Shown: piece after piece, positions 7,058 to 29,909 of the stretch
How positions within the stretch are numbered: the stretch's first letter is position 1
Layout of the letters: every line of letters begins with the position of its first letter
Assembly (NCBI GenBank): GCA_903884115.1
Contig: CAISDH010000051.1
Span: forward strand, 1-37,485
Length of the DNA stretch: 37,485 nt
From: an uncultured Microcaldota archaeon
GTDB lineage: Archaea > Micrarchaeota > Micrarchaeia > Micrarchaeales > Micrarchaeaceae
Reading direction: 5' to 3'
Notes under the pieces: model-generated
Told to the model about the DNA's origin: nothing
What the model saw: only the letters and a program-made list of their open reading frames with translations
The model's database searches: none
Position numbers and translations under genes: made by a program

Positions 7058-7236
7058 GGCATCACGCACACTATTCGGCATTGCAAAAGAAATACCTTGC
7101 GCATGCAATACTCGGATGACCTGCTGCCATGCTCCAATCCTCCTGCAAGTCACTTGGTCCGAACAGCACAACCTGTTTATTAAATCGTGCCGGTTGCGCA
7201 TCCAGAAACTGCTGTCGCATCGCCAAAAGCCAAAGG

Positions 7237-7284
7237 ATAAATATGTTAAGTGCAAGCATATGCCTGACTGTACGTAGTGATTCG
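7237..7284 (+). promoter_or_regulatory. TATA box and ribosome-binding site fixing the start of the giant surface protein
   Basis: ATAAATAT at 7237-7244 predicts a transcript start near 7266. AGTGAT at 7276-7281 plus three bases then places translation at TTG 7285. The in-frame ATG 7243 would overlap the TATA box, and ATG 7321 has no ribosome-binding site. Confidence 0.5.
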
Positions 7285-13200: not shown

Positions 13201-13848
13201 GGAGGCGGTCCTGCCTGCCAGCTCGCAAATCCCCTCTATGCGATAGTACAGACGCAGCCTACCGGCTATGACGAGTCGGGTGCCGTCTCATTCAATCCCG
13301 AATACAACTCCTTATCGAACCCTGAGCAGTGCTATCCGGAGCCTGCGAGCCTGCTAAACACAGCAAACATCGTGTACAACTGCAACATATACCACAGCTA
13401 CGGCCTGCCAGCTGTGTACAAAAACCCCGGCACCGGCTTCTACCAATACTGCCTGCCCTACCTTTCAAATGGCAACGGCATATTGACCTCGCAGCTCGGC
13501 CTCGTGCAGATGGTGCAGACTGACAGCAACGGCAACTTCGACTATAAGTTAAACACGTGCGGCAACGGCAATGCGCAAGTGATTGCAGCCTATTATGGCT
13601 ACCCTCCTCCGCAGCCTCTCAGTGTGACGCAGACGCTGCTTCCCCAGAGTGGGGGTCAGTCGGAGTTTGTAACGAGCCCTGTGACTTCGACATCGTATGA
13701 ATTCACATACACGTATGCGCCAGCCTCTACCGCTATGACGATAACGATAGGCTCGTTTGCGCTTGGATTCGGCAACCTAGGCATGCTCTCTGTGCTGGCG
13801 CTCGCGATAGCAATAGTAGTAATAGTGTGGCGTGCGCGCTCATCATGA
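7285..13848 (+). CDS. Giant secreted, membrane-anchored surface protein with N-terminal Kelch-like propeller
   Basis: A protein of about 2187 residues. From TTG 7285 the N-terminus is a signal peptide: short n-region with one Lys, hydrophobic core MLLLLSAIFLLMMLP, cleavage after VHA. Residues ~36-432 hold six Kelch/galactose-oxidase-like blades with recurring AQI-PNG-V-W, NSL-VGE and a cysteine pair SCV...Y-x-YC-x-GG (second cysteines near 7498, 7708, 7915, 8115, 8286 and 8473). A Pro/Thr linker follows (about 8595-8640), then about 1400 residues rich in Ser, Thr, Tyr, Asn and N-glycosylation sequons, a late Ig-like/carboxypeptidase-regulatory-like segment (about 12960-13610) and a C-terminal membrane anchor (GMLSVLALAIAIVVIVW) with basic tail RARSS. 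Likely adhesion, host contact or envelope function; not an assignable enzyme. The 3' end overlaps the convergent RCK gene by 6 bp. Confidence 0.85.
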   Translation: MPLTANKSANAAMLLLLSAIFLLMMLPLVHAQVAADYAWVQPTNSLAVGGAGVFGESCVVASGTGTANFIYCMGGLSTNPSSSYDTVVQYAQIYPNGDISPWIQSANSLSVGETRPSCVTGENYAAINGASTVIATGNYLYCIGDFAGSGFSVQYAQILPDNDVSAWTSAFPGTFSAYSENTVGCVLIPIPYTPSETQSNPVNPQFATIYCISSDVLYSMAVLGCSAYSQQSYGITCNLNNIIEYDGTVGIWNPNYLPRTALTCASASLVTANNYLYCQNQYAQIETSAEVGIATTPWSSGPSPDNTNQFGSTSAGIFGWTTGFSCVTSAGALYCMGGQYYEYSFRAGPSNPLLSNPFVSAQILPNGAVSTWTQSVNSLAVGEMYPSCVTSNGYIYCVGGGTTCTGDYCYDTSGGNYNNDFTPSTAVQIEGPPVLFSPCPPPVPTPSTQATTSYTKWSTQVGGGTISQSSSGLPSNTPVIGTVLQNNANNAQWLISCPVAPDTKNTIQYFTTLPGSPFMGNRCLANDAPLTTNAIFTVSVTCGASNVASGTPYLAFQNIAAGNVFNLAYSGTTSYQNTGINDISNGYDSESYIFGQVPYSTENGLWTWSAKYADLSQFGAGNLAQLNLPIQTYFFKYDQQYTCQYRNPNPSVGGMLTTTYTCEYPYVYTVSSSVTSLSPMTINVPTLEGPATNFALINGASYGSFTEDDSMSSHIGVDVDWICAEAIQDGQGVGTWCAGTDFASATKVSGVTLYLPGQSPKNNLYAYLITDNGQQRYYIIYSINNYYGIVDGFSGGWVPASGTTLQYATLGAIPYLLYNLSMPATYSMINSHEQFLNLSFDLYSEHNYMDPTDYLGQLPLYTNSSFFATEGSSTPELNVFPGALATAGAQSAASIALRGGNAVFLSSLTQIQAPSLLSNLGKVGNYLTYTLQNPTYIASAPDDYVYVLTSQTESGSLAYFATTTNTFLYTMRLIPPGYYNLSNYSPASVTASSPGSWNSVWDDYWLSTTEQQQPDLYITSILDLSGCVQFLWKQTCASGSGAVNMNPVAVASDYASDIFMLGTYPSFSWSSSTGSSGLYLAEIPNNPQASTIISPDLSGQLPSGFSLSGPEFASAPSGQYVYVASASDNNGNVYLFQTPTGGNSGGSGFGYASSIPLSYSNSTYNMIITKYLANGGPFGNAQVASAYAGAATVNDVAGNHHPVALADVQGVLYVLDNWTFTVNNKQSAILMLRAFKNGTEEIPIDGSSHSSMLPVSSTQITTSQGTGASPSGGWSPYGWPLSATITTSSGLITYCAANCTYTPSTLSSAYPPIGPQIAPDGYVNGFGFSMDFNGTAYLIANSHYMYCDGTQSNGQCQSYYGSLLNHMYTELVAFKMTLANYTQTSLGAYSPYACYIDTSYSDSPCTYVNNPLLTNMQPPVEGVPSSFAYDTSEGSPEQYLSIQNVLSSAVPSGIASSCSGNSCQTQANQQESSGSISTGNGNIAPQSSYSNLQGTSTVSQPSALSPIYINSVITGSLIVPYCASYNLRQTWKAKKPYIIEGGPGGPECYNTLIGTGTNLYQTPCPLPPNPAPLMPAGATFPSAVDSSTTLSSTVSTCASATAPLQSNYLNDTVEGGGTYLQSMPNQQYYVANLSDASSIGLPYINYNIFTSRIFGEAYVNITINPTDYGFYTTSSAPTETVPATCTPSGFYSSQAGKQTSIYICPTDFSPSSCIGPVTTYVFSVAYFESNPASFGEEPETNYYCSVPLGPGSSPWVINAVQAYTYSLVNNEYTAFGKTYSAYYYQSAVPLNPPTGSEGISNCGAACTGYYYNPLNSFAGTSMLTYSSNTQINFVTTLSAYEQTSQLDSIILDQTANPSILGYNRLIYTFVDAFNNTIWAPLDTDLAHTTQITLAPLVSIDPTNANESYVDVAGTATYTTLSGGSDPLYPANVYIYYNTNLNYYDTANTINTGLSSDHTIGYYWDSLLCAFNPGGGPACQLANPLYAIVQTQPTGYDESGAVSFNPEYNSLSNPEQCYPEPASLLNTANIVYNCNIYHSYGLPAVYKNPGTGFYQYCLPYLSNGNGILTSQLGLVQMVQTDSNGNFDYKLNTCGNGNAQVIAAYYGYPPPQPLSVTQTLLPQSGGQSEFVTSPVTSTSYEFTYTYAPASTAMTITIGSFALGFGNLGMLSVLALAIAIVVIVWRARSS

Positions 13849-15848: not shown

Positions 15849-16373
15849 ATGAAAAAGATTTCAATAGGATCCGAGAATCCTGCAAAAGTGGCCGCGGTCG
15901 AGAACGCAGTGAAAAGGATATGGCCCGATGCCGCGGTCGTAGCCGTAAAGGTGGCAGCAGGAGTGAACGAGCAGCCCAGATCCGACGACGAGGCGATAGA
16001 GGGCGCAACCAACAGGGCGAGGCTGTCCCTGCAGAAGACCGGTTCAGACATAGGCATCGGCCTGGAGAGCTGCACCCTCGACACAAGATACGGCATGTTC
16101 ACCACCGGCTGGGTCGTCGCCGTGGGGCGCGGCAATGAGGCGGGGATGGGCAGCACCGGCAGCATACTGCTGCCCGAGAGGGTCGCATCCGAGATAAGAA
16201 ACGGCAAGGAGCTCGGACCTGTCATGGATGGCCTGATCGGGGGCCATAACACTAAGCAGAAGCAGGGCGCCATCGGGATACTTACGGGCAACAGGGTCAC
16301 GAGGACCATGTCCTTCGAGAACGCCGTGATCTTCGCGCTTGCCAAGTTCATCAATCCTGAGTACTACGAATGA
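15849..16373 (+). CDS. Inosine/xanthosine triphosphatase, DUF84/YjjX family
   Basis: A 174-residue house-cleaning enzyme expected to hydrolyse non-canonical purine nucleotides (ITP, XTP) and protect nucleic acids. The family pattern is clear: SENPAKVAAVENAVKR at the start, GVNEQPRSDDEAIEGATNRARL, GIGLESC (the GxE motif), PVMDGLIGG and GAIGILTGNRVTRTMSFENAV near the end. ATG 15849 is preferred over GTG 15840. It is divergent from the RCK operon with only 91 bp between starts. Confidence 0.9.
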   Translation: MKKISIGSENPAKVAAVENAVKRIWPDAAVVAVKVAAGVNEQPRSDDEAIEGATNRARLSLQKTGSDIGIGLESCTLDTRYGMFTTGWVVAVGRGNEAGMGSTGSILLPERVASEIRNGKELGPVMDGLIGGHNTKQKQGAIGILTGNRVTRTMSFENAVIFALAKFINPEYYE

Positions 16374-18281: not shown

Positions 18282-18866
18282 TCATACGCTTGATATTGAA
18301 TTGCCACTTATGCTTATTATTCTTTTATTCTCGAAGTCTATCGTGGTCGCTGATGCCATAGCTATGGGCGTCGAATCATAGTAGTCATCATATTTGCTAT
18401 CAACAATTCCAAGCGCAGCCAGAATTGGATCGTGGTGTGTAACTGCAATCACTGTTGTTCCTTTTCTGACACTTTCTGCAAAACTTCTCAGTCGCTTCTG
18501 CAGGTCCTTCCAGGGCTCCATACCTTTCTTGTATCCTGACTTTATTTCTTCCATCATGGCATAGTTCATATCGTCTTGTGATCCAAAAGCCATGTTGTTT
18601 AGCTTTCCCATGCGTCGTTCCATCAATCTTTTATCGACCTTTGGTTTAAGGCCGCATTTTTCACTAATTATCTGAGCAGTTTCCACTGCGCGCAATATAG
18701 GGCTTGTATAGAGCCCGTCTATTCTTGCATTTCCAATCGTTTCGGCAATGCCTGCTGCCTGGGCCTTTCCAGTATCTGTTAATGAATAGCCGTTAATGTC
18801 TGAAGTGAGCATGTGTGTGGTATTTGCCAGGCTTTCTCCGTGTCGTATAAAGATTATGGTGCTCGT
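18282..18866 (-). CDS. Histidine phosphatase (phosphoglycerate-mutase-like), apparent ACG start
   Basis: The catalytic RHGES motif (phosphohistidine) is encoded just upstream of the first ATG (18812), so the protein must begin earlier. The frame is closed by TAA shortly before and contains no ATG, GTG or TTG. The sequence reads GGAGAT-AGT-ACG, then codons for STIIFIRHGESLAN, so ACG 18866 with a strong ribosome-binding site at three-base spacing is the best start, giving 194 residues. Other signatures: SPILRAVETAQII, the acid E in LMERRMGKL and THHDPILAALG (second catalytic His). Substrate unknown (sugar phosphate or similar). A base change from ATG or a sequencing error is the alternative. 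Confidence 0.85.
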   Translation of the reverse strand, partial: TSTIIFIRHGESLANTTHMLTSDINGYSLTDTGKAQAAGIAETIGNARIDGLYTSPILRAVETAQIISEKCGLKPKVDKRLMERRMGKLNNMAFGSQDDMNYAMMEEIKSGYKKGMEPWKDLQKRLRSFAESVRKGTTVIAVTHHDPILAALGIVDSKYDDYYDSTPIAMASATTIDFENKRIISISGNSISSV

Positions 18867-18875
18867 ACTATCTCC

Positions 18876-19496
18876 TGTGGATTAACCTTCTATATTTTGT
18901 TAGGTATTTAACTCTATTCGAACCTACCTCGAGGACAAGATTTCATTTAGCTTCGTCCTACTTGGCTTTCTTTAGAATTATGTTTTCCTATCTGTTTGAG
19001 GCATGTTTTATATCGAATATTTGTAGATTTCTGCAGTGCGCTGAAGTATATACTGCCTGAAATCGTCTAACCTGTCATAAAATAACTAGGTTGCAGGCCC
19101 TGATTGGACTCGGTTGGAAGTCTACTTAAAAAGAGAAGGGTGCGTTAAAAGACAAATCAGAAAGGGCCGGATCTCTCAAGGGCTATGTGCAATATGAGCA
19201 AAGTAATCCGCTTCGTAACAGAAAAGCTCTAAGATAATCAAATTACAAAGACATATGGTCTTATTACTTATACATAATTAGTACAATAATTAGTGGATAT
19301 CCTCCCTTATCAGTAGTATTGCTGTTCAATAGTTTTATATCGATTACATCTTTGTCTTCAATAAAACTATTTATTTTTTCTTCTGCTGTGCCTACCCCTG
19401 CGCTTAACAACATGGATTTTACTTTCATGAAATCACAAATAGCGTTGGTAAATAGACTATTAAAAGGCTTTGGTTTCTTCGATAGATATCAGAGAG
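18876..19496. other. Gene-poor AT-rich stretch
   Basis: About 620 bp with no frame I would call a gene. It holds a TATA-like AAAATATAG (about 18891-18899, minus strand) for the histidine phosphatase, a weak long-range hairpin at 19096-19168 and several A/T runs. A plus-strand open frame from 19319 is Phe/Ser/Ile-rich and overlaps a better minus-strand candidate, so it is not called. Confidence 0.5.
19096..19168 (+). ncRNA. Possible structured RNA (weak)
   Basis: GGCCCT (19096-19101) can pair with AGGGCC (19163-19168) and the adjacent GATT with AATC (19155-19158) across a 4-nt bulge; inside, GGACT can pair with AGTCT to form a second hairpin. The strand cannot be decided, and no clear promoter or T-run supports it, so it may be chance. 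Confidence 0.2.
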
Positions 19497-19721
19497 TTAC
19501 TCTGAATGAAGTGTGCTATCGCTGCTCTCCGACTTGCGTTGGCGTGCCCGCCATTCTTCTATATTCCTATCCACCGCTTCCTTAACTCTGAGCTCGTCAC
19601 AAAGCCTCTCTATCTTCTCGAAGTCTTTGGCGTTCCGTTTCTTATCTTCTGACACTAAATCACACTTTATTTTATGTTGGCAATGCTGATATGCTATAGG
19701 ATATATGCTATTTAGCTCCAT
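19497..19721 (-). CDS. Hypothetical charged helical protein, 74 residues
   Basis: Not recognised. The C-terminal two thirds is strongly amphipathic and charged (SEDKKRNAKDFEKIERLCDELRV, then EAVDRNIEEWRARQRK), as expected of a real small protein. ATG 19721 shares a bidirectional TTTTAAA with the surface-protein gene at 19797 and would have a leader of about 20 nt. The first codons overlap the 14-bp match to the tRNA-Gln 3' end. It is called with caution because the ribosome-binding site is poor. Confidence 0.4.
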   Translation of the reverse strand: MELNSIYPIAYQHCQHKIKCDLVSEDKKRNAKDFEKIERLCDELRVKEAVDRNIEEWRARQRKSESSDSTLHSE

Positions 19722-19723
19722 CC
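19710..19723 (-). repeat. 14-bp copy of the tRNA-Gln 3' end
   Basis: ATTTAGCTCCATCC is identical to 21226-21239, which is the last 11 nt of the tRNA-Gln gene plus 3 flanking bases, in the same orientation 1.5 kb away. It could be one boundary of a small element that integrated at the tRNA, or chance. Confidence 0.35.
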
Positions 19724-19763
19724 TAATCGGGTTCTTTAGTCTGCTATCCCTAAAATCAGAAAT

Positions 19764-19773
19764 CCTTTTAAAC
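19764..19773. promoter_or_regulatory. Symmetric TATA box between divergent genes
   Basis: CTTTTAAA reads as a TATA element on both strands. Counting 26 bp right gives about 19795, just before GTG 19797/ATG 19803 of the surface-protein gene; 26 bp left gives about 19742, 20 bases before ATG 19721. Confidence 0.45.
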
Positions 19774-19796
19774 TCTCCATCCGATAAGCTCTTAGT

Positions 19797-21161
19797 GTGG
19801 ATATGGGCGGCTTGAACGGTAAGGTTTTCAGCCTAATCATGCTACTGTCTCTTCTTGCTCTATTTGCAATAGTTCCTCTGGTCCATGCTCGCAATTACAC
19901 TGTGCTTGCCGGAGGAAGCGCACACGCACAGGTTTCGTTTTGTTTAAATGGCGCCGGAGGAAATTCGCACGTGGAAGCTTCGGCAGGAGGCGCCGCTGAG
20001 TCATGGGTGTCTCCCTCATACTTTGACTTTGGTGAGATAACTGCAGGAAGCTGTCCAGTAGGAAATTATATAATATCTGCCCCGCCAGAAACGCCAAGTG
20101 GCAATTATGCGTTGGATTGGTATGGCACCTGCCAGAATGATAACGGAAATGACTGCTATCCCTTCATCATAAACGAAACGATTCATGTTTTGGGTAGTGA
20201 GCCTGTTACAACTGAATACACTACAAGCGCAACTACTACCATCCCTCCAGGCGGTTGTGGGCCTCTCGAAACGGTGGGTGGTCTGCCTTCAAGCGTGATC
20301 TGCTATCCGTCAGACATGCGTATGGCGAAGAGCGGCAGTGCCTCCGTCGTAGATCTTAGCGATATGGAAACAGACACTTTCACCGTTGGTGACATCGCTT
20401 GGGTGAAGGCAGATTCCTCTGTCACTGTGAGTGCGCCTGAACTCGTGCCCGGATACTCTCTCTCGCTTGGCCCAGACACCCTCGGAGCCATGATTCAGGT
20501 CCTGGGTAACCCGACAAGTGGTTTTTCGAGCGCAGAAGACCAATATCCTTCATATTACCAAACGTTTGACGATGAGGCGCTGAACTTTGGGATGCACATC
20601 TCTTCTGCGCTTATTACACATACTGTGATGAACCATCTTTTGCTTCTGGCAGGATTAGGCGAGCTGACCACTACAATAGTGTCGGCGCCGACCGCCATGG
20701 TTGAAGTCGGTCATGGTGAGATCCATCTGAAAGAGAACACGCTGCATAAGGCAAACTGGGAAGCCGATATCCTCTCCTCGCCGCAGGTGGGGGTCTTGCT
20801 GAAGGGAACCAACGTCACGATGAATGTTACCGGCAACGGCACTACACTCACTGTCTTTACTGGCTCCGTTCTAGTTGATAGCCTTGCCGTGAACGGCCCC
20901 ACGCTGAAGTACATCACGCTTAATGCAGGACAACAGCTCTTCGTCCCGAGCAATTCGATTCAGGCTAACCAACAGAATCTCACCTCTAGCGTCAAAACAT
21001 TCACTCTGAGCACAACAAGCACCATATATCAAAGCACAAATTCCACAGCACCATCCATAACTATCGCAGGTATGTCAGAAACACAGACCATCGTAACCCT
21101 CTTTATTTTTGTAATGATTATTATCATTGCTTTGCGGTTGTACCGGCAGAGAAAGAAGTAG
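19797..21161 (+). CDS. Secreted, membrane-anchored protein with FecR-like domain
   Basis: A 454-residue protein. Signal peptide MGGLNGKVFSLIMLLSLLAL to cleavage after VHA (residues ~3-31). N-terminal beta-rich region (about 32-140) with four spaced cysteines, then a Thr-rich linker (TTEYTTSATTTIPPGG). Residues ~285-390 resemble FecR domains: a V/T-rich strand series with NVTMNVTGNGTTLTVF, TGSVLVDSL and LNAGQQLFVP, the usual ending of the domain. A C-terminal TM (TIVTLFIFVMIIIIALRLY) and basic tail RQRKK anchor it with the bulk outside the cell. Start GTG 19797 or ATG 19803; the transcript is probably leaderless. Role unknown; FecR domains outside iron signalling often occur in structural or sensor surface proteins. 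Confidence 0.8.
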   Translation: MDMGGLNGKVFSLIMLLSLLALFAIVPLVHARNYTVLAGGSAHAQVSFCLNGAGGNSHVEASAGGAAESWVSPSYFDFGEITAGSCPVGNYIISAPPETPSGNYALDWYGTCQNDNGNDCYPFIINETIHVLGSEPVTTEYTTSATTTIPPGGCGPLETVGGLPSSVICYPSDMRMAKSGSASVVDLSDMETDTFTVGDIAWVKADSSVTVSAPELVPGYSLSLGPDTLGAMIQVLGNPTSGFSSAEDQYPSYYQTFDDEALNFGMHISSALITHTVMNHLLLLAGLGELTTTIVSAPTAMVEVGHGEIHLKENTLHKANWEADILSSPQVGVLLKGTNVTMNVTGNGTTLTVFTGSVLVDSLAVNGPTLKYITLNAGQQLFVPSNSIQANQQNLTSSVKTFTLSTTSTIYQSTNSTAPSITIAGMSETQTIVTLFIFVMIIIIALRLYRQRKK

Positions 21162-21228
21162 TCTTAGTTGGAAATTGATAAAGAACAGCATGCGCTACTT
21201 TTGGATTATACTGTCTAAAGAATTCATT

Positions 21229-21322
21229 TAGCTCCATCCAGATTCGAACTGGAGTCTGCAGGTCCAGAGCCTGCCATCCTTTTATGGTTGCGCAATCGCA
21301 ATGACCACTAGACGATGGAGCT
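21229..21322 (-). tRNA. tRNA-Gln(CTG) with a 21-nt intron in the D-loop
   Basis: Minus strand. Acceptor AGCTCCA/TGGAGCT with discriminator A; anticodon arm GCAGG-CTCTGGA-CCTGC (anticodon CTG, Gln); T-arm TCCAG-TTCGAAT-CTGGA; G26 present. The D-arm begins GTCT-AGTGGTCA but is followed by 21 extra bases before AGGAT. Those bases form hairpin TTGCG-ATTG-CGCAA, a 3-nt bulge TCA, a 4-bp helix GTGG/CCAT and a 3-nt bulge AAA, a textbook bulge-helix-bulge for splicing endonuclease. Splicing restores a D-arm GTCT-AGTGGTCAA-GGAT and a 73-nt tRNA. CCA is not encoded. Confidence 0.93.
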
Positions 21323-21375
21323 AAACACTTATATTATCTGCGTCATATTTATAAGACGTTTGCAAGCGTGGTGCA

Positions 21376-22077
21376 TTGCCGATCAGGTACAACCTCTCTG
21401 TTACTGAAGAGCTCAAGGACATAGCAGTGGCAGATGCCGTGCTCATACTGGCTTTCTCGCTCACCATAGCTGGAGGCATAGGTGCGCTGGCTGCGAACCC
21501 TGGAAGCTTCCTGCAAAATCTTATATATTTCATACCGATAGCTGCCCTTGGCGTTACGCTGAGCTTCATACTGCATGAGCTGATGCATAAGTTCACAGCG
21601 CAGCATTACGGTGCGATCGCGGGATTCAAGGCTAGCCGCAATGGCCTGATGATAACCCTAGCGACCGGCTTTTGCGGCTTCCTGCTGGGCATTCCCGGAG
21701 CAACCATGATATACACGAGCCGCTTCACAATAAAAGAAGATGGCATAGTATCGCTGGCTGGGCCTCTGACAAACTTCGCAGTATTCGCTGTATTCCTGGC
21801 TGCGTTGTTGATCCTGGCTCCGCCGCAGGGTAGTTATGTCTACAATGCAATCCAGTTCACCTTCTTCATAAGCATCTTTCTGGCATTTTTCAACATGCTG
21901 CCCATCCCTCCTCTCGATGGCAGTAAGGTGCTGCGATGGAACAAGCCAGTGTATTTCGCGACCATGGGCGTCATACTCCTGCTCATGATCTACTTTGCAG
22001 GAGTGCCCCTGAGCACGATCATCTATATGATTGCAATTGCGCTGTTCTTCTCGTTCTTCTACAGGACGGTGTTCTGA
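21376..22077 (+). CDS. Site-2-protease-like M50 membrane metallopeptidase
   Basis: A 233-residue polytopic membrane protein with the HExxH zinc motif in a TM (FILHELMHKFTAQHYGA; H67, E68, H71) and the second motif FNMLPIPPLDGSKVL, supplying the third ligand D181. The AGPLTNFAVF segment between them is also typical. It would cut membrane-embedded substrates, usually releasing regulatory fragments; its target is unknown. The start is TTG 21376 (GTGGTG just upstream); no in-frame ATG precedes the first conserved helix. TTATATT near 21328-21335 can serve as TATA. It lies 53 bp from the 5' end of tRNA-Gln on the opposite strand. Confidence 0.92.
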   Translation: MPIRYNLSVTEELKDIAVADAVLILAFSLTIAGGIGALAANPGSFLQNLIYFIPIAALGVTLSFILHELMHKFTAQHYGAIAGFKASRNGLMITLATGFCGFLLGIPGATMIYTSRFTIKEDGIVSLAGPLTNFAVFAVFLAALLILAPPQGSYVYNAIQFTFFISIFLAFFNMLPIPPLDGSKVLRWNKPVYFATMGVILLLMIYFAGVPLSTIIYMIAIALFFSFFYRTVF

Positions 22078-22239
22078 CAGATAACATAGGGGCTTCGTTG
22101 ATTTAGTTGGACTTCTTCAACAGATTTCGGACTTTATCAACAAGGCAGAACATAGGCAAAGCCTTATAAACGCGTTCTAAGGCGCAGGGAAAAGCATTTA
22201 TAGGTTGACACCGTAAAGTCTTAACGAGAGGGGGATAAA

Positions 22240-22410
22240 ATGATAGGAGGATACACACATATAAACAAAGGTATGACTGTCTTTGTGGCCAGCGGGATAG
22301 CTGCAGAAGGTTGCCCTACAGCAAAGATAATAGTCGGAAATGTCCGATTTAAAGACGACTACTACGGATGCCTCAAGATATCAAAACTTCTGGCAAAGTC
22401 CATATTCTAA
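22240..22410 (+). CDS. Hypothetical 56-residue protein
   Basis: A short gene with strong signals. GGGGAT lies exactly three bases before ATG 22240, and TATA candidates occur at 22163-22170 and 22195-22204. The product (MIGGYTHINKGMTVFVASG, then GCPTAKIIVGNVRFKDDYYG, ending LAKSIF) alternates beta-type strands and has two cysteines; I do not recognise it. Its stop abuts the convergent stop of the regulator gene with no spacer. Confidence 0.6.
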   Translation: MIGGYTHINKGMTVFVASGIAAEGCPTAKIIVGNVRFKDDYYGCLKISKLLAKSIF

Positions 22411-23616
22411 TCATTTGCGCCCTATCAAGTCTATTATAGTCTCTTCTTCTTTTTCTTGAGCTTTTATTTCGTTGTATTTTATCTGCTCTGAAGGATTCAT
22501 CTTGTAATTTCTTACTAGCGCCCCATATTGCTGAGAGTATGTTCTGTCGAACCTTCTACAGCATAAATTACCATATAGCATCTTTGTCACGACAGATGCG
22601 GTTATCTCCACTCCTTTCATGTTCGATAGATCTCCTACTACTTCCTCTAGGCCTCCATCTTCAAACACCGGAACGAAGAAAACGAAACCATAAGGTTCGC
22701 CTATGTCTCCAACAAGAAGATACTTGCTCAACGGAAGCTCCGAATCTTCGATTATGCTCTTAAGGAGCTTCTCCCTGCTTTTTGCGAACTTTTTATGATT
22801 TGTTACAGTGGCGAATATGGTGCCTACATACTTCATCTGCGGGTTTTGCATTGTTATTGTTACTCTCTTAAGCAAGCCTGCCTCCAACAGCTTGTGATAT
22901 GCGTATTGCGCCCTGCCTATGTCAAACCCGTATTTGCTGTCAATATCTTTGAATTGGATCTTGCCGTCCAGGTTCAACTCCTTGAGAACTGCAAACTCCC
23001 TTCTGAGTATCTGCTTTCTTTTTCCAGAAGAGATGGTGGACCTTATCTCATATCTTTTCAGTACCTTGCTCTCCAGAGTATCCATGAAATCGTTCCTCAA
23101 TGGAACGAAGTTGTAGGTTTCCGTGAATGGCACAATATACCACTTAGCATCATACTTGTCCAAGCCCATCTTTACAAGGTTGTGCCTTACCTCTTGGATT
23201 TCCACGTTATTCTCTGCAAGCGCGTAGAAGAGCAGATCGTACGCGCCGCCTCGCACAAGTGATGCCAATTGCACTTTCGGCTCGCTTGCGACTGCCGATA
23301 TTATCTCTTCATCTGTTGGTATCTTCTTGTCGAACTTAACCATGATGAGGAACTTCAAATATCCCAGCATTTCCACGTCTATTTCTGCGGTATATCTTAT
23401 CTTGTAGCGCTTTTCAAGAATCTTCACGCGCCTGTAGACTGGCTGGTGCTCTATGCCTGCTAGGTCACTGAGGAAGTTGAATGATATCCTGCCGTTCATG
23501 CTAAGTGCAGTCAATAGTGCAGACTCTATGGATTCGTTGTACTTTCGCCTCAACCTTCTATCCCTAAAAGCCCTCATGCCCGGGCCAGCACCTTTCACAT
23601 TAGATTTATAACGCAT
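22411..23616 (-). CDS. Tandem Lrp/AsnC-like transcription regulator
   Basis: A 401-residue protein with two consecutive Lrp-like units. Unit 1: helix-turn-helix around ALLTALSMNGRISFNFLSDLAGIEHQPVYRRVKILE in short pieces (residues ~33-70), then a RAM-like ligand domain (YLKFLIMVKFDKKIPTDEEI, VQLASLVRGGAYDLLFYAL). Unit 2: REFAVLKELNLDGKIQFKDI and AQYAYHKLLEAGLLKRVTI, then KYVGTIFATV and YLLVGDIGEPYGFVFFVPV. A cysteine pair (NLCCRRF) lies near the end. It resembles the protein at 26907-27914. Start uncertain: the TATA-like CATATAAAT (about 23622-23630) predicts transcription from about 23598, exactly at an in-frame GTG; ATG 23616 and ATG 23577 are alternatives. Confidence 0.8.
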   Translation of the reverse strand: MRYKSNVKGAGPGMRAFRDRRLRRKYNESIESALLTALSMNGRISFNFLSDLAGIEHQPVYRRVKILEKRYKIRYTAEIDVEMLGYLKFLIMVKFDKKIPTDEEIISAVASEPKVQLASLVRGGAYDLLFYALAENNVEIQEVRHNLVKMGLDKYDAKWYIVPFTETYNFVPLRNDFMDTLESKVLKRYEIRSTISSGKRKQILRREFAVLKELNLDGKIQFKDIDSKYGFDIGRAQYAYHKLLEAGLLKRVTITMQNPQMKYVGTIFATVTNHKKFAKSREKLLKSIIEDSELPLSKYLLVGDIGEPYGFVFFVPVFEDGGLEEVVGDLSNMKGVEITASVVTKMLYGNLCCRRFDRTYSQQYGALVRNYKMNPSEQIKYNEIKAQEKEEETIIDLIGRK

Positions 23617-23633
23617 ACAATATTTATATGTTT

Positions 23634-23664
23634 CTAATAATAAACCGAAAATCTAATTTATTAG
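23634..23664 (-). promoter_or_regulatory. Inverted repeat upstream of the double-Lrp gene
   Basis: CTAATAA (23634-23640) and TTATTAG (23658-23664) form a 7-bp inverted repeat just upstream of the TATA box, at 24 bp centre to centre. This is a likely site for autoregulation by the Lrp-like product; inferred from position only. Confidence 0.45.
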
Positions 23665-23712
23665 GTAATTATGCTATATGTGCATCCCAGTTGAGTATTG
23701 CAGTTCAACTAT

Positions 23713-23866
23713 CTATATATGTAAGTTACTTCATATAGTACTCCGTGGGGGTCGCATGTCTAGCGGGATAAAAAATTGTGTATGCCATCTTATATCTATT
23801 TTTTCCACCACAATCGGCAACACCATCCCATCCACCCATCCGCTAGCATGCCTCCCGCAGTTTTCT
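23713..23866 (+). ncRNA. Candidate non-coding RNA with own TATA box, long hairpin and T-run
   Basis: CTATATATG (23713-23721) predicts a transcript start at about 23743. From there, 23749-23769 pairs with 23838-23856 over about 16-18 bp with two single-base bulges and one small internal loop (core CATG-CTAGCGG-AT with ATCCGCTAG-CATG). Nested inside, ATTGTG (23775-23780) pairs with CACAAT (23809-23814), leaving a C-rich single strand (23815-23837). TTTT follows the 3' arm at 23861-23864. No frame covers the region. It is not SRP RNA, RNase P RNA, 5S or a tRNA by length and motifs. The remaining bases to 24053 hold only promoter-like AT tracts and a CCTATA-CGA-TATAGG palindrome at 24001-24015. 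Confidence 0.4.
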
Positions 23867-24053
23867 CTGGATTAAAAAAGAGAATGAATGCAATTTCTTG
23901 CTGAAAGGGCAAGGCAACGGTGTGCGTCTTCTGTCTAAACCCTGCGAAAGGTTCTTAAACCTTCCTATTTTAGACCGGAAAAGTATATATATCTCAGAAT
24001 CCTATACGATATAGGCGCAAATATTTAACTTGCAAATACAAATCATGAGGCAT

Positions 24054-24150
24054 GCAGGGATAGCAAAGTCTGGTCAAATGCGATGGACTCAAGATCCATT
24101 GGCTTAGGCCTTCGAGAGTTCAATGCTTTGAGCAAATCTCTCTCCCTGCA
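24054..24150 (+). tRNA. tRNA-Leu(CAA) with a 12-nt intron in the T-loop
   Basis: Acceptor GCAGGGA/TCCCTGC with discriminator A; D-stem GCA/TGC with GG in the loop; anticodon arm ATGGA-CTCAAGA-TCCAT (anticodon CAA, Leu); long variable arm TGGCTTAGGCCTTC, typical of class II tRNAs; T-stem GAGAG/CTCTC. The T-loop has 19 nt instead of 7. Removing 12 nt restores TTCAAAT, the consensus loop. TCAA can pair with TTGA within the insert, giving a minimal bulge-helix-bulge. ATATTTAA at 24021-24028 is a TATA box about 26 bp before the predicted start. CCA is not encoded. A protein gene begins 21 bp downstream on the same strand. Confidence 0.93.
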
Positions 24151-24171
24151 TTTATGTTTTATGGTGATAGG

Positions 24172-24837
24172 ATGGCGAAGAAAACATCAATACGAATCAA
24201 CAAGACATCAAGACCCAAATTCCGCGAATCGAAGATTTTCGACGTTCCGAATTATGCGCAGAGCGAGGCATTTACCAGCTCTGCTGCGTGTGCGATGATG
24301 ACGCTAAAGTACCTGAACAAGGACATGCGCATGCGCAAGGAAACAGAGTTTGAAATCTGGCAGGAGGCGGTGAACGGCAGCGTATGGCACGGATCCAGGT
24401 ACGGTCTGGCGTACGCATTGACAAAGAGAGGTGCAAGGTCTCAGATAGTCAGCAATGCGAAGGATGAAGGTTATGAAAAGAAGCTTGCAGTTTATGAAGG
24501 CATAAATCTTGAAACTCTGTCTTCTTCTTTCAATGAAATAAAAAACAAGGCAAAATCGATGAAAATAAATGAGCAGAATGGCAACGTCACGCTCAGCATG
24601 ATAAAGAAGCAGCTCACTGCCGGGAAGATACCCATTGTGCTGATAAACGCAAACACGCTTAATCCTTACCTGGAGCCTTCTCCGCACTGGGTCGTGATAA
24701 AGGGCTATGACAAGGACGCGGTCTACATAAACGACCCGTATTCTGCCAATACCATAACAATGGAGCAGCAGGTGTTCAAGAGCGCTCTTGGCTATGAGGG
24801 CGAATGCCACATGATAGCCGTCAGCACAAGGAAATAG
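24172..24837 (+). CDS. C39-like papain-fold peptidase-family protein
   Basis: A 221-residue protein with the catalytic layout of peptidase C39-like domains: Gln30 and Cys40 (NYAQSEAFTSSAACAMM), His172 (PSPHWVVIKGYD) and Asp188 (VYINDPYS), with the typical H-W-V-V-I-x-G-Y strand. Family members cleave leader peptides or peptidoglycan-type and Gly-rich substrates, or act as cytosolic peptidases. No transporter domain or signal peptide is seen; the N-terminus is basic (MAKKTSIRINKTSRPKFR). ATG 24172 has a perfect GGTGAT three bases upstream, with the upstream in-frame ATG 24154 rejected. It probably shares the tRNA-Leu transcript. Confidence 0.8.
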   Translation: MAKKTSIRINKTSRPKFRESKIFDVPNYAQSEAFTSSAACAMMTLKYLNKDMRMRKETEFEIWQEAVNGSVWHGSRYGLAYALTKRGARSQIVSNAKDEGYEKKLAVYEGINLETLSSSFNEIKNKAKSMKINEQNGNVTLSMIKKQLTAGKIPIVLINANTLNPYLEPSPHWVVIKGYDKDAVYINDPYSANTITMEQQVFKSALGYEGECHMIAVSTRK

Positions 24838-24914
24838 CTCTTGTTGCTGGAAAGTACTGTTCTTGGACTTGGAGGATTCGTGGTTCGCAGAGAGCTGCAG
24901 GCCCATTCAGTTTC

Positions 24915-25253
24915 TTATTCTTGCAACGCTTTCAGAGAGACTCCTGACTGCATTATGCCGGGCATCCTGGTCCTGTTCCTGGTGGCAAAGCGCCTGTAGC
25001 AGTTCGTGCATATGAGCCTTTTTGCAAGCGGCAACGGCGACGCGCTGTATATTCTTGACGGCATCACGAACTTGACCTCTCCCTTGATGAATGTTCTTGC
25101 ACAGACTGAGCATGTGTTCTCTATAAGGTATTTCTTGTCCAGATACTCTGCGCATCTTATACAGTAGTAGAAGCCATCGCTTGCCGACCTCTTCTTTGAG
25201 AAACCGTAGACTGCGCTGCCGCATCTTTTGCAACATTCACTACTTTCTAACAC
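24915..25253 (-). CDS. Small zinc-binding protein with four cysteine pairs
   Basis: A 112-residue protein with four CxxC knuckles: CCKRCGSAVYG (near 7-11), YCIRCAEYL (near 31-34), CSVCARTF (near 48-51) and ICTNCYRRFATRNR (near 81-85). These would hold two zinc ions in treble-clef or ribbon-like folds. The family is not recognised; RNA, DNA or ribosome association is common for such proteins. GTG 25253 follows AGGTG closely. It converges with the C39-like gene. Confidence 0.65.
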   Translation of the reverse strand: MLESSECCKRCGSAVYGFSKKRSASDGFYYCIRCAEYLDKKYLIENTCSVCARTFIKGEVKFVMPSRIYSASPLPLAKRLICTNCYRRFATRNRTRMPGIMQSGVSLKALQE

Positions 25254-25511
25254 AACACCTACCCACTAAACATCCACCACGATGTTTGTTAACTGCCATC
25301 TAACACTGTATTATCCGTGTTAGTAATTTTCACTGAGGTCCTATTTATGCTTTACCTAACTGTGCAAAAAGAAAAGCGGAAGTGTGCCTTGTCGTCGAAA
25401 AATGTCAAAATTCTGATGCATAAGGTATTTATTGCTTGGCATTTATCGGGCTTCTTGAACGACGCCAGAAATAAATGCCGCAACGCTAAAAACCTTGCAA
25501 ACATGGCCAGC

Positions 25512-26792
25512 TTATGCTCTGCTATTGCGGCTCTTCCGGTTGCGGAGCGGTCTCCTTGCCTGCGAATCCAGGAACTCGCCGAATGCACTTTCCAGATGCT
25601 CCGGATTGCCTATGCCGACCATTATTGTTTCGCCAGTGCCAGGAACCATCATGTCATTCACGAACGCTATCTCATCGCTGCTCACGTGTTCGTGCGGATC
25701 CTTGTTCGTGAATACGGTGCAGCCGTAGGCTTCAAATATGCCGCTGTATGCGCTTCTGGGAAGCGTTTCGCTTTTCATCTTTATCGCGAGCGCCCTGTTC
25801 TCTGCTTTCAGCTGGCCTATCAGCTTTGAATTGGTGATGAATGCGCTCGTCACGTCAAACATTATCATCTGCGAGCCTTTCTTTGAGACTATGCGCTCAG
25901 GTGCCTTGTTGGAGAGGTGCCGTTGCACAATAACTGCGGATGCCATCAGCACAATCGCATAGATGTAATATGCCTTCATGGGCGTGAAGCCGAGCACTGC
26001 CCCGATCAGCACCGTTGCAAGAGGTATTGCAAGCGTGGCGTTGCCCACAAACACAGGATTCAGCACCTTGTACGCGTAGATGTACAGCGTGGACCCAATC
26101 CCGTATGTCACAACGCCCAGGAACAGCAAGACAAGCACAGTTCCGGGCGTAAAGCTTATCGTGAGAGGTATCCTCAAAACCAGGGCGAGCGCGGCGACCA
26201 AGGCAAACGAGGAGATGTTGAACACTGCGACAGATGCAGTCGTGCTCGCATTGTAGAACTTTATGATAAGCACTGCGAGCGTGGCCGCAAGCGCAGAGCC
26301 GAGAAGCACCAGCATGTAGGGCATCTCCGCCGCATTGGCCGATGGCAGAAGGGCGCCTTGAGATGCCACCAGGTACACTCCAATGAACCCGACCAGTATC
26401 GCCGCGATCTGCGCCTTGGTGACCTTTGTCCTCAGCACGAAAGGTATGAACAGCGCTGCGATCAGGACCCAGCTCCTGTACATGATTCCTGCTATGCTTG
26501 AATTGGTGCCCACTGTTCCGACTGCTAGAAGGAGCTGAGAGATTGCATTGTTGCACAGGCCTGCCACTGCTATTATCGGCAGTCCCTTCGTGGAACTGAG
26601 CAGCGACTTCAGGCCTTTCCTGTCATAGGTGTAGCTTATGCTGAACGATACAATCGAGGATATCAGGAACACGTAGAAAAGTTTGGTGATGGGGTTCACG
26701 TTGCTGAACGTGTTTCCGAGCAGTATCGGCACTAATGAGAGTTCTGCAAACGCGATTGCGAAAACGATGGCACCCTTCTGTGCAATCTTCAT
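25512..26792 (-). CDS. EamA/DMT transporter with an extra C-terminal soluble domain
   Basis: A 426-residue protein. Residues ~5-300 contain about ten hydrophobic helices in two repeats typical of EamA drug/metabolite transporters (for example AGLCNNAISQLLLAVG and GVVTYGIGSTLYIYAYKVL before the helix LATVLIGAVLGF). The extra part, ~310-426, is soluble and probably cytosolic: MIMFDVTSAFITNSKLIGQL, YGCTVFTNKDPHEHVSSDE, ETIMVGIGNPEHLESAF, with a basic tail. Ordinary DMT proteins end near 300 residues. I do not recognise the tail domain. ATG 26792 has AGGT just upstream and CTATAAAG (about 26814-26821) as TATA. Confidence 0.85.
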   Translation of the reverse strand: MKIAQKGAIVFAIAFAELSLVPILLGNTFSNVNPITKLFYVFLISSIVSFSISYTYDRKGLKSLLSSTKGLPIIAVAGLCNNAISQLLLAVGTVGTNSSIAGIMYRSWVLIAALFIPFVLRTKVTKAQIAAILVGFIGVYLVASQGALLPSANAAEMPYMLVLLGSALAATLAVLIIKFYNASTTASVAVFNISSFALVAALALVLRIPLTISFTPGTVLVLLFLGVVTYGIGSTLYIYAYKVLNPVFVGNATLAIPLATVLIGAVLGFTPMKAYYIYAIVLMASAVIVQRHLSNKAPERIVSKKGSQMIMFDVTSAFITNSKLIGQLKAENRALAIKMKSETLPRSAYSGIFEAYGCTVFTNKDPHEHVSSDEIAFVNDMMVPGTGETIMVGIGNPEHLESAFGEFLDSQARRPLRNRKSRNSRA

Positions 26793-26878
26793 ACCTGATA
26801 TTTAGTGCCCAAGCTTTATAGAGGGCTGCTGTTAGATAAAATTTGTTTGCAATTTTTTGCTGAATTGTAAAGAAAAGC

Positions 26879-26886
26879 TTATAAAT
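26879..26886 (+). promoter_or_regulatory. TATA box for a leaderless regulator mRNA
   Basis: TTATAAAT is centred 24-25 bp before ATG 26907, so transcription should start at the start codon. The 114-bp gap to the divergent transporter gene holds both promoters, so the Lrp-like product could control both. Confidence 0.6.
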
Positions 26887-26906
26887 TAGGATAGAGAAGC
26901 AAAAAT

Positions 26907-27914
26907 ATGGAATTCTTCTCAGGCATAGACAAGGAGATACTAAGGGGCATAAGCGAGGATTCTAGGGTCTCTGTCACGCAGCTTGCGAAACAGGCCCACT
27001 GCTCCCGTGTCACGCTGATGAAGCACCTGCACGAGCTTGAGCAGAAACTAGGCATCGTATACACCTTGGAGGTGGACGACGCGATGCTGGGCAGCATGGA
27101 AAGGCACATCATCGCTATGAAGTTTGCCGTGAAACCTGAGGCCAAGGTATTGGAGGAGATCTTCAAGGATGATTCGCAAGCCCAAGTCGTTCTTACTACC
27201 TCTGGTGATTTCGACCTGTTCATATACGCAAGGACAGGAAACCCTGTCAGGTACATAGTGTGGGAATCCCATATCGCAACCGAACTGGCCGAATTCAAGC
27301 CGCTGATACGCCCGTCGGAGTTCATAGTGGCGCACACGGGATTCTGGCCGCTGAACGATGGATTTGTCAGTGAAATGAGCAGCTCGGTCAAATTGGACGA
27401 CAAGGACAAGCGCCTGCTTGTGCAACTCAACAGGAATTCTCGGCGCTCCATACAGGAACTCTCAGAGCTCACAGGCATGAAGGGAAGCACCGTGCGCTAC
27501 AGGCTCACGAGGCTGATGAAGAGCAAGATAATAAAGCGCTTCACGATAGCTGTGCAGAGGCCCCCGCATCAGTGTGCAATGGTACACCTGGTAAACTACC
27601 GGTTCAGCAAGGGTTTCGGGGAGCGCATGCTTGAGATCAGGAAGGTATATCTCGGCATCGACGACAAGGAACCTCCGTTGCTCAACACTCTCCAGATGAT
27701 ATCTCCTATAAGCGGCAGCCACAGGTCCCTCGGGATCACGCTCACCGCGTCCGAGGAAGACGCCATCAAGGAAATAATCGAGCCTAACAAGCGCATATAC
27801 AAGAAGGACAGCATAGAGATAGAGCTCGCCAAGATAACAGGGGTGGTAAAAGGCCTGCTGCCTTTCAGGAACATAGACGTAAAGAAGAACTACCTGCGGA
27901 TAGAATGGCGCTGA
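26907..27914 (+). CDS. Tandem Lrp/AsnC-like transcription regulator
   Basis: A 335-residue protein with two Lrp-like units: helix-turn-helix ILRGISEDSRVSVTQLAKQA and VTLMKHLHELEQKLGI, RAM-like strands IIAMKFAVKPEAKVLEEIF and VVLTTSGDFDLFIYA; then KDKRLLVQLNRNSRRSIQEL and STVRYRLTRLMKSKIIKRF, and a second ligand domain (MVHLVNYRFSKGF). The same double layout is found at 22411-23616, so the two are paralogues. DNA-binding regulators of this type respond to small metabolites such as amino acids. It is divergent from the EamA transporter, a likely target. The mRNA looks leaderless. Confidence 0.85.
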   Translation: MEFFSGIDKEILRGISEDSRVSVTQLAKQAHCSRVTLMKHLHELEQKLGIVYTLEVDDAMLGSMERHIIAMKFAVKPEAKVLEEIFKDDSQAQVVLTTSGDFDLFIYARTGNPVRYIVWESHIATELAEFKPLIRPSEFIVAHTGFWPLNDGFVSEMSSSVKLDDKDKRLLVQLNRNSRRSIQELSELTGMKGSTVRYRLTRLMKSKIIKRFTIAVQRPPHQCAMVHLVNYRFSKGFGERMLEIRKVYLGIDDKEPPLLNTLQMISPISGSHRSLGITLTASEEDAIKEIIEPNKRIYKKDSIEIELAKITGVVKGLLPFRNIDVKKNYLRIEWR

Positions 27915-27917
27915 AAA

Positions 27918-29006
27918 TCACACGTGCTTAGAAACTTCTATCGCACGCTTCACTTTTGACAGATCTGCGCTGGTACGTATGGCATCGGGATCGATGTGGG
28001 TGAGCGAGGTTTCGAATCCTTCTTTCTCAAGCGCCTCCATCACTTTCACGGGGCTCACGGAGCTCATGTGCATGCTCTGCGTCAGTCTCGGCAGGTCATA
28101 GTAGAACGGTGTGTCAAGCTCCCCGTTTATGCGGTCCATGAGCGACGCTGCGCCCTTGTCTGCCCTGCTGTCCAGGCATTTCCTTACTGCGTGCGTTGTT
28201 TTCCTGTCGTACAGGCTGCCAAGCCACATCGCTCCGAATGTATCAAGCGCATTGCCGCACTCCGGGCATTTCCTGCTTGTTGCAATGAATGCTTTCTCGT
28301 ACATCCTGAAGCAGCATTTTTTGCAGTAGTACGCATAGCCCATGTTCGACAGCGATTCCATCGCCTTAAGCGAGCCATGGCGCAACCTGAGGAACACGTG
28401 CATGTAATGGATGCGCGACACAGACATCAGAACCTCAATGCCGAAATTGAACTGCGCCGCTGTCCTTGTGATGTAACCTGTGAGTATGCGCAGGCCAGCC
28501 TCATGGCACATCTCGTTGTGCATGGGCTTTGCGCCGTATATGCGCATGCACGCCTTAGGGCTTGCACCGCACAGCACCGCCGTGTCTGTTGCTGTTGCGA
28601 TGAGGTGCGTGCCGTCCCTTGATATCTTCATCAGGTCGTAGATGTACGGCGCAACCCCTCCAAAAGGGTCGAGGTCTATCACGTCAAACTGCTTATTGCA
28701 GGTGTTCGCGAATTCCTGCACGCTCGTGTTCAGTGCGGTCGCTTTCACTCCGTTGAACTTGAGGTTGCGCCTCATTGCCTTGTACGCGTTTGCGTTTATC
28801 TCGAGCAAGGTTAGGTCGCGTATGCCGTCCTCAAGGCAGTATCTTATGCCCCTTATGCCTGTTGCTGCGGTCGTATCCAGCACGCACGTGGTTTTCTTCG
28901 CCAGGCTCTTCACAAAAGCGATGCTTATCTCCCTGGAAATGGCGGCCTTGGGGTTCAGGAAAGCGCCGTCAGCGTACTTTATTCTTGCATCGCCCTCTTT
29001 GTACAA
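27918..29006 (-). CDS. trm1: tRNA (guanine26-N2)-dimethyltransferase Trm1
   Basis: Methylates G26 of tRNAs twice with SAM; all four tRNAs in this window have G26. A 362-residue protein: N-terminal EGDARIKYADGAFLNPKA, SAM motif VLDTTAATGIRGIRY (43-57), acidic LLEINANAYKAM, catalytic DLDPFGG (111-117) and a zinc-ribbon-like cysteine cluster (YYCKKCCF, then SRKCPECGN) before the C-terminal domain. TTG 29006 is the start: AGTGAT sits three bases upstream and overlaps the stop of DUF357, so the two genes form an operon. Confidence 0.96.
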   Translation of the reverse strand: MYKEGDARIKYADGAFLNPKAAISREISIAFVKSLAKKTTCVLDTTAATGIRGIRYCLEDGIRDLTLLEINANAYKAMRRNLKFNGVKATALNTSVQEFANTCNKQFDVIDLDPFGGVAPYIYDLMKISRDGTHLIATATDTAVLCGASPKACMRIYGAKPMHNEMCHEAGLRILTGYITRTAAQFNFGIEVLMSVSRIHYMHVFLRLRHGSLKAMESLSNMGYAYYCKKCCFRMYEKAFIATSRKCPECGNALDTFGAMWLGSLYDRKTTHAVRKCLDSRADKGAASLMDRINGELDTPFYYDLPRLTQSMHMSSVSPVKVMEALEKEGFETSLTHIDPDAIRTSADLSKVKRAIEVSKHV

Positions 29007-29010
29007 TTTA

Positions 29011-29259
29011 TCACTTCTTGTCTTTCAATTCCTTCAAGGCGTCGAGAAGCCCGTGCGCATAGCTTATGCAAGAGAACGCAGTGTAGAAGTCCTCCTTGCC
29101 AAGGTAGCTCTTCGCGTCGCTGGCATAGTCCATTGCCAATTCAAGAACATGCAGGGCAGAGACGCCTCTTTCCTCTACACTGCCCACTGCCCTGACAGAA
29201 TCTTCGAACATCGCGATGTCCTTTTCTATCCTTTTTCTTATTTCTTCATTTCCGCCCGT
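29011..29259 (-). CDS. DUF357 family protein, apparent ACG start
   Basis: A protein of 82 residues with the archaeal DUF357 signature: LELAMDYASDAKSYLGKEDF and YTAFSCISYAHGLLDALKEL. The N-terminal helix of the family (NEEIRKRIEKDIAMFEDSVRA) extends upstream of the only ATG (29211), and the open frame holds no ATG, GTG or TTG there. GGTGAT-TCG-ACG places ACG 29259 at the standard three-base distance from a perfect ribosome-binding site, and at the start predicted from the TATA element. Function unknown; helical, cytosolic. First gene of an operon with trm1. Confidence 0.82.
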   Translation of the reverse strand, partial: TGGNEEIRKRIEKDIAMFEDSVRAVGSVEERGVSALHVLELAMDYASDAKSYLGKEDFYTAFSCISYAHGLLDALKELKDKK

Positions 29260-29273
29260 CGAATCACCAAACG

Positions 29274-29290
29274 TTATTTATATTTATACT
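29274..29290. promoter_or_regulatory. Bidirectional TATA element between DUF357-trm1 and the 29310 gene
   Basis: TTATTTATATTTATACT reads as TATA on both strands. Counting 26 bp gives about 29308 on the plus strand (leaderless ATG 29310) and about 29257 on the minus strand (ACG 29259). Confidence 0.55.
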
Positions 29291-29309
29291 AAGTACTTAA
29301 ATCGGTTAC

Positions 29310-29909
29310 ATGGCCGACTTGTGGAGCGACTATAGCGATGGCATCATAAAGAACGTAGACAAACAGATCGGAGTGAAATACAAGCTCACATTGAGAAGCC
29401 TGCTTATGGATCCATCCAAGTACGTGTCACAGCCCAACATACAGATGACAATAGAAAACCTGAAGGAAGAAGTCGGAAAATACTTCGATGGGCGAGTCAA
29501 TGAAATGGAAGTCGAGAAGAAGGCTTTCGAAGACGCGGCGATGCGCTCCGATGCGTTGACGGGCCAGCTCAGCCAAAGCATATCAATACAGGCGAGGCAG
29601 AACAACGTGCCCATGATAAAGCCCGTGGCAGTGGAACGCGACACAGACGAGGAGGAGAAGATCTATATCGACTCCGTGGACAACAGCGTAATAGCGCTCG
29701 TTAGCAAGTTGGTGCTAAGCTCCCTGCTGATCGCAGACTTCACCACCACATACGGAAACTACAAGGCAGGGGAGTGGCTCTTCAGCGGCCACAAGAATTA
29801 TGTCCTTAGCGTGTACATGCCTTCAAACGGCTATCTCCAATTGCAATCCAGCAGGGATGAGATCATTGCCTTGCTAGACACGGCTTCAGGTTTCATCAAG
29901 GGGTTGTGA
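29310..29909 (+). CDS. Hypothetical protein, 199 residues
   Basis: Not recognised. The N-terminal half is helical and charged (NLKEEVGKYFDGRVNEMEVE, FEDAAMRSDALTGQLSQSI), followed by an acidic linker (RDTDEEEKIY) and a C-terminal half with mixed strands and helices (KNYVLSVYMPSNGYLQLQ). No membrane segments or cysteines. Its end overlaps the start of the Fap7-like kinase (GTGA at 29906-29909), so the two are probably translated together. Confidence 0.7.
   Translation: MADLWSDYSDGIIKNVDKQIGVKYKLTLRSLLMDPSKYVSQPNIQMTIENLKEEVGKYFDGRVNEMEVEKKAFEDAAMRSDALTGQLSQSISIQARQNNVPMIKPVAVERDTDEEEKIYIDSVDNSVIALVSKLVLSSLLIADFTTTYGNYKAGEWLFSGHKNYVLSVYMPSNGYLQLQSSRDEIIALLDTASGFIKGL

Follow-up and report, generated by a model that had tools for sequence, protein, structure and literature searches.

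ACG as a probable start codon, behind Shine-Dalgarno motifs, of a DUF357 gene and other genes in a Micrarchaeota genome

The DUF357 gene of a Micrarchaeota metagenome-assembled genome is probably translated from an ACG codon, and it is one of at least five genes of this genome that read in this way, by what would be near-cognate initiation anchored by a Shine-Dalgarno (SD) motif and served by an ordinary Met-tRNAi. The genome (G000) comprises 57 contigs and 1024 kb; the window, the whole stretch of 37,485 nt that was analyzed, belongs to contig C51. The scan for starts covered ~437 kb of G000 and ~1.2 Mb of relatives' stretches: stop-to-stop frames with homology 5' of the first standard start (ATG, GTG or TTG throughout) were searched for an SD in register. 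The modal SD register of G000 is GTGAT ending 3 nt before the start codon (23 of 308 homology-backed genes). The features discussed are collected in Table 1.

Table 1. Features of the window and of contig C33 (positions without a contig name refer to the window)
Feature	Position	Strand	Details
DUF357 gene	29011..29259	-	82 codons from ACG + stop; Pfam PF04010
Putative ACG start codon, DUF357 gene	29257..29259	-	aligned column = relatives' ATG/TTG; no upstream in-frame standard start
Shine-Dalgarno GGTGAT, 3 nt 5' of DUF357 ACG	29263..29268	-	sequence; modal register
First in-frame ATG of DUF357, within helix 1	29209..29211	-	rival start, would truncate fold
TATA-like TTTAAGTA, distal, DUF357	29294..29301	-	first T 42 nt 5' of ACG
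Proximal TATAAATATAAAT	29275..29288	.	26-32 nt from + strand ATG at 29310
Divergent gene (MADLWSDYSDG...)	29310..29909	+	sequence
Trm1-like tRNA methyltransferase, downstream of DUF357, TTG start	27918..29006	-	Pfam PF02005, E = 1e-87
Histidine-phosphatase gene, GGAGAT-AGT-ACG	18282..18866	-	SD 18875-18870, ACG 18866-18864; Pfam PF00300
Ribosomal eL43, GTGTGAT-TGT-ACG	C33:162924		family Ribosomal_L37ae
Exosome Rrp4, AGTGAT-TAA-ACG	C33:165080		family ECR1_N_2
Zinc-ribbon-like gene, GGTGAC-TGA-ACG	C33:160937		orthologue in G006 has GTG
ABC ATPase, possible sixth ACG start, GGTGA-AGAC-ACG	C33:192824

The stop-to-stop frame of the DUF357 gene runs from 29277 to 29011 on the minus strand and reads ITFGDS-T-GGNEEIRKRIEKDIAMFEDSV and onward. 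Its first standard start is codon 23, with none earlier; upstream, GGTGAT and ACG are separated by TCG (29262-29260), and the leader stands in the genome as GGTGATTCG. The translated frame matches the PF04010 profile with 56.4 bits against a gathering cutoff of 29.4 (E = 3e-15), and it matches the solved DUF357 structure 2PMR with E = 4.4e-12. As the latter alignment begins in the residue-6 region and runs from EIRKRIEKD onward, the residues between ACG and ATG are part of the DUF357 fold. The initial annotation had placed the N-terminal helix before the only ATG of the frame. Coding sequence does precede that ATG, but helix 1 spans it, and it is only the first of several standard starts in the frame, with another ATG and a GTG lying further on. 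Initiation at this internal ATG, which is the first standard start and the choice of ordinary gene callers, would remove most of helix 1, and we consider it improbable: the helix is conserved and lies within the 2PMR fold, and the ATG has no SD, whereas an intact one precedes ACG. The same logic applied to eL43 would remove the conserved RYGxSIRKR.

DUF357 was found in 54 of the 60 relatives of the same order. In G028, GGAGAT-TTT-ATG aligns base by base with GGTGAT-TCG-ACG, and two further relatives (G017 and G021) carry TTG at the ACG column behind GGCGAT/GGTGAG. The GGTGAT-TCG-ACG stretch proposed in the initial annotation as the start signal thus lies at 29268-29257, precisely at the relatives' start position. 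Over 117 distinct DUF357 loci, starts were ATG in 85, GTG in 14, TTG in 14 and none standard in 4. Three of these four belong to Micrarchaeota, namely L270 of G094 with TGTGATGTC-ACG (cited also as TGTGATGTCACG), L272 of G092 with AGGTGTATTT-GCG, and L028 of G043 with ACG or ATA behind a weak signal; the fourth, L273, comes from another archaeon and has an ATG farther upstream.

The same alignment bears on a most improbable reading in which the A run near 29240, assembled as GAAATAAG, has lost one nucleotide by error, so that an ATG-AAG-AAA-ATA start (MKKIRKRIEKD) is hidden. An extra A after ATGAAGAA would indeed give an in-frame ATG near the start of the relatives in family f2. The distance from SD to start would then be 13 nt and not 3, however, the alignment with G028 holds column by column through GGAGATTTTATG, and the other ACG genes would stay unaccounted for.

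Those genes are the histidine phosphatase of the window, whose ACG is aligned with an ATG of its closest orthologue (L088), and three genes on contig C33: eL43, Rrp4 and an unassigned zinc-ribbon-like gene. In the relatives, the eL43 ACG column is a standard start in 29 of 29 (26 ATG, 2 TTG and 1 GTG), mostly with an SD in matching register, and the Rrp4 column is ATG in 27 of 29. Since both genes are essential and normally single-copy, a correct sequence would mean that their ACG start has to work. Initiation of the three C33 genes may be helped by coupling, since each has its SD in contact or overlapping with a stop codon that lies upstream. The ABC ATPase is only a possible sixth case, since its ACG is followed by a GTG in frame and the starts of the relatives leave the column unpinned. 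The earlier proposal that ACG initiation is real in this lineage, which had been based on two genes, is supported by these data: three more starts in G000 share the geometry, orthologue alignments put the ACG of eL43 and Rrp4 on the start column, and independent Micrarchaeota lineages show the like. Taken from sequence, the pattern suggests real ribosomal initiation at a codon that gene finders ignore.

Two relatives of the histidine phosphatase deserve mention in their own right. One, L093 (G002:C27), has no standard start, and its GTGAG-TCA-ATA suggests a start at ATA. The other is a second copy within G000 (L104, G000:C11:5839-6105) with 69% identity and a GTG start; it is frameshifted, which suggests a pseudogene or an assembly error.

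In the sampled genes, codons lying ahead of the first standard start had an in-register SD in 5 of 54 cases for ACG and in 48 of 5645 for the other non-standard codons, the strongest association of all codons (Fisher p = 1.3e-4); CTG came next (5/108, p = 0.003). Without the two genes that had prompted the analysis, ACG falls to 3/52 with p ~0.01 by a hand Poisson estimate, which we count against the ACG reading. Separately, at position 16064 (+) of L069 (C33 at ~56 kb), GTGAT-TCA is followed by CTG (LPEKEPIKAESE...) with the first standard start 38 codons on, and this gene likely starts at CTG.

Crude motif counts gave no enrichment. Over the 1.02 Mb genome, GRWGATNNNACG occurs at 16 sites against 35 for a reversed-pattern control, and crude genome counts were 4 against 8 for GGTGATNNNACG, 9 against 25 for GTGATNNNACG and 10 against 34 for GGTGANNNNACG. 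Matches were mostly intragenic; only 2 of the 16 GRWGATNNNACG sites have start-site context, both within the window. The enrichment test therefore belongs on gene starts: the motif by itself is uninformative, and position in homology-backed genes is what counts. The test for ACG enrichment that the initial annotation had called for gives a divided answer: in its crude form the raw motif is unenriched over the genome, but in the form that matters, at the 5' ends of the sampled genes, ACG is enriched behind an SD.

All six candidate ACG sites of G000 fall within C33:160.9-192.8 kb and C51:18.9-29.3 kb (G000:C33:160937-192835 and window 18864-29268), that is, ~42 kb of 1024 kb, unlike GGWGATNNNATG sites, which are dispersed across many contigs. 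Random placement would give such clustering with a probability of ~4e-5 (a hand estimate, made post hoc), and this too is counted against the ACG reading. Neither a GC shift nor a regional T-to-C excess that could account for the clustering was found in the two stretches.

The clustering, the origin of the sequence in a 57-contig metagenome-assembled genome, and the low k-mer coverage of the contigs that hold several other-lineage cases are what favors an artefact or minority variant, in which the cells carry ATG and the consensus C stems from error or strain mixing. We judge this unlikely. It would require T-to-C error at ~1% of start codons, but T-to-C was seen at 0 of 140 T sites in columns invariant across at least 8 genomes and at 1 of 286 across at least 6 genomes, and stop-loss extensions were no commoner than in relatives. 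These tests bound error only to ~2% per T, a limit much higher than the usual rate of consensus error. T-to-C was also not raised in C51 or in C33:160-180 kb. Finally, random error predicts ATA as often as ACG, but no credible ATA start was seen in the G000 sample.

Other lineages, too, have non-standard starts that are backed by homology and preceded by an SD; family names there, DUF357 excepted, were assigned by eye. These are a fibrillarin-like gene of L276 (TIKEIFKGVFKVDNRIATKNL) with GGTGATTTA-ACG (cited also as GGTGATTTAACG), a PHP-domain gene of G021 (TRVIADLHTHSRFARACSS) with GGTGGTTAG-ACG (cited also as GGTGGTTAGACG), a DUF167-like gene of L250 (AIIKARVIPNSRSES, minus strand) with GGTGAGTGT-GCG, and an ATT start in L267. 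The rate of non-standard starts per sampled gene is low in the genomes of L276, G021, L250 and L267. In the L250 DUF167-like gene and in the L272 DUF357 gene, the start column holds a GCG preceded by GGTGA or AGGTG, the conserved sequence has no standard start ahead of it, and the GCG looks like a changed GTG. We put forward only tentatively, and do not favor, the broader idea that Micrarchaeota routinely initiate at NCG (ACG, GCG) behind a strong SD, even in a ribosomal protein gene and an exosome gene, through decoding or initiation machinery tolerant of C at the middle position or through C-to-U editing of mRNA starts.

C-to-U mRNA editing that turns ACG into AUG, as in plant chloroplasts, is itself a very doubtful explanation for G000. 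It would restore both the ACG and the GCG of the other lineages (to AUG and GUG), but conserved coding columns have no T-to-C excess, in a test of moderate power, and besides the SD no common context surrounds the C. C-to-U mRNA editing is not known in archaea. Chloroplasts do edit start codons in this manner, the starts of rpl2, psbL and ndhD arising from C-to-U edited ACG (PMC9845219), and there, as here, ACG stands in the DNA at a conserved start; such starts require editing machinery, whereas the conserved-column test gives no sign of editing in G000.

The promoter context is consistent with SD-led initiation at ACG. In G000, SD-led ATG genes mostly have TATAAA 37-43 nt upstream (few cases), and many genes with no SD have TATAAA at 27-34 nt. 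The TATA-like elements of the DUF357 gene (42 nt upstream) and of the histidine phosphatase (45 nt upstream) are placed as in SD-led ATG genes, and each of the two genes appears to head its own transcript. For DUF357, which is SD-led, the more distal element, TTTAAGTA, seems to be the one in use; it would leave a short leader holding the SD. The proximal TATAAATATAAAT probably acts as a TATA box for the leaderless gene on the other strand. Leaderless ACG initiation from the proximal TATA was considered and rejected, as DUF357, with its SD and its distal TATA-like element, is a better match to the SD-led class.

Several features of the surroundings were recorded alongside. In the divergent promoter (window 29275-29310), the palindromic TTTATATTTATA probably serves the leaderless plus-strand gene with its ATG at 29310. 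An adenylate-kinase-like gene lies 3' of the divergent gene, in the window region of 29906, and has a GTG available; in Micrarchaeota this gene often lacks a standard start (L229, L230, L240, L243 and L251) and there seems to start at ATA. Elsewhere on the plus strand of the window, a tRNA-Leu-like gene at 24054-24150 was missed by ARAGORN and has an apparent insertion in the T-loop region (GAGAGTTCAATGCTTTGAGCAAATCTCTC), with insertions also present in several other tRNAs of G000, and a very long open frame of 2242 codons occupies 7120-13848.

The initiation apparatus of G000 looks ordinary. The initiator tRNA (C33:31150-31224) has the anticodon CAU and the GGG/CCC anticodon stem, no initiator-type tRNA with CGU was found among the tRNA hits above the lowest-scoring ones, and tRNA-Thr(CGU) is an ordinary elongator; a changed initiator tRNA was rejected on these grounds. 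Loss of aIF1, reported to discriminate against non-canonical starts in archaea (PMC8211752), was likewise dismissed as a source of relaxed fidelity, the factor (SUI1) being present and intact with 101 residues (C33:76273-76479). With an ordinary initiator tRNA and intact aIF1, the simplest mechanism is SD-anchored near-cognate initiation. A short-leader mRNA would pair with 16S rRNA through GGTGAT, which would set ACG in the P site, where Met-tRNAi (CAU) would pair with A and G and the middle C.A mismatch would be tolerated, so the DUF357 protein would probably still begin with Met. That initiation actually occurs at ACG, that the first residue is Met and that the leader is short are what we infer. 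Such starts would have arisen by T-to-C change at a standard start where a strong, well-spaced SD keeps initiation tolerable.

Canonical SD-led archaeal initiation shares with the G000 genes the SD register, with GTGAT 3 nt ahead of the start codon, as well as the spacing of the promoter, Met-tRNAi (CAU) and aIF1, but it uses AUG, GUG or UUG where they have ACG. Rare bacterial genes also start at other non-AUG codons, such as AUU in infC and pcnB; these are likewise natural genes in which a good SD precedes a weak start, but AUU differs at codon position 3 and serves autoregulation or low expression, whereas ACG differs at position 2. Natural ACG starts have been described for eukaryotes and their viruses, among them mammalian ACG and the Sendai virus P/C mRNA (works cited in PMC9845219). 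The codon is the same there, and presumably so is the C.A mismatch with the CAU anticodon, but eukaryotic and viral ACG initiation depends on scanning, whereas here SD pairing would position the codon, which is the gene's only start. A 2020 review of archaeal initiation lists AUG, GUG and UUG, with ACG unmentioned (PMC7531240), and keyword searching of partial literature coverage found no archaeal ACG start. In one reporter set in E. coli, ACG gave 0.1-1.5% of ATG (PMC6925171), which we count against the ACG reading.

Standard prokaryotic gene calling omits ACG, and such proteins are truncated or lost in annotation; that of eL43, for example, would drop its conserved N-terminus. Routine NCG initiation, if true, would mean that starts are missed by gene finders and translation table 11 phylum-wide. 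ACG initiation in G000, if real, would add to the start codons known from archaea, bear on gene counts in those DPANN genomes for which metagenomes are the sole source, and offer a natural test of aIF1 and SD pairing as setters of start-codon fidelity.
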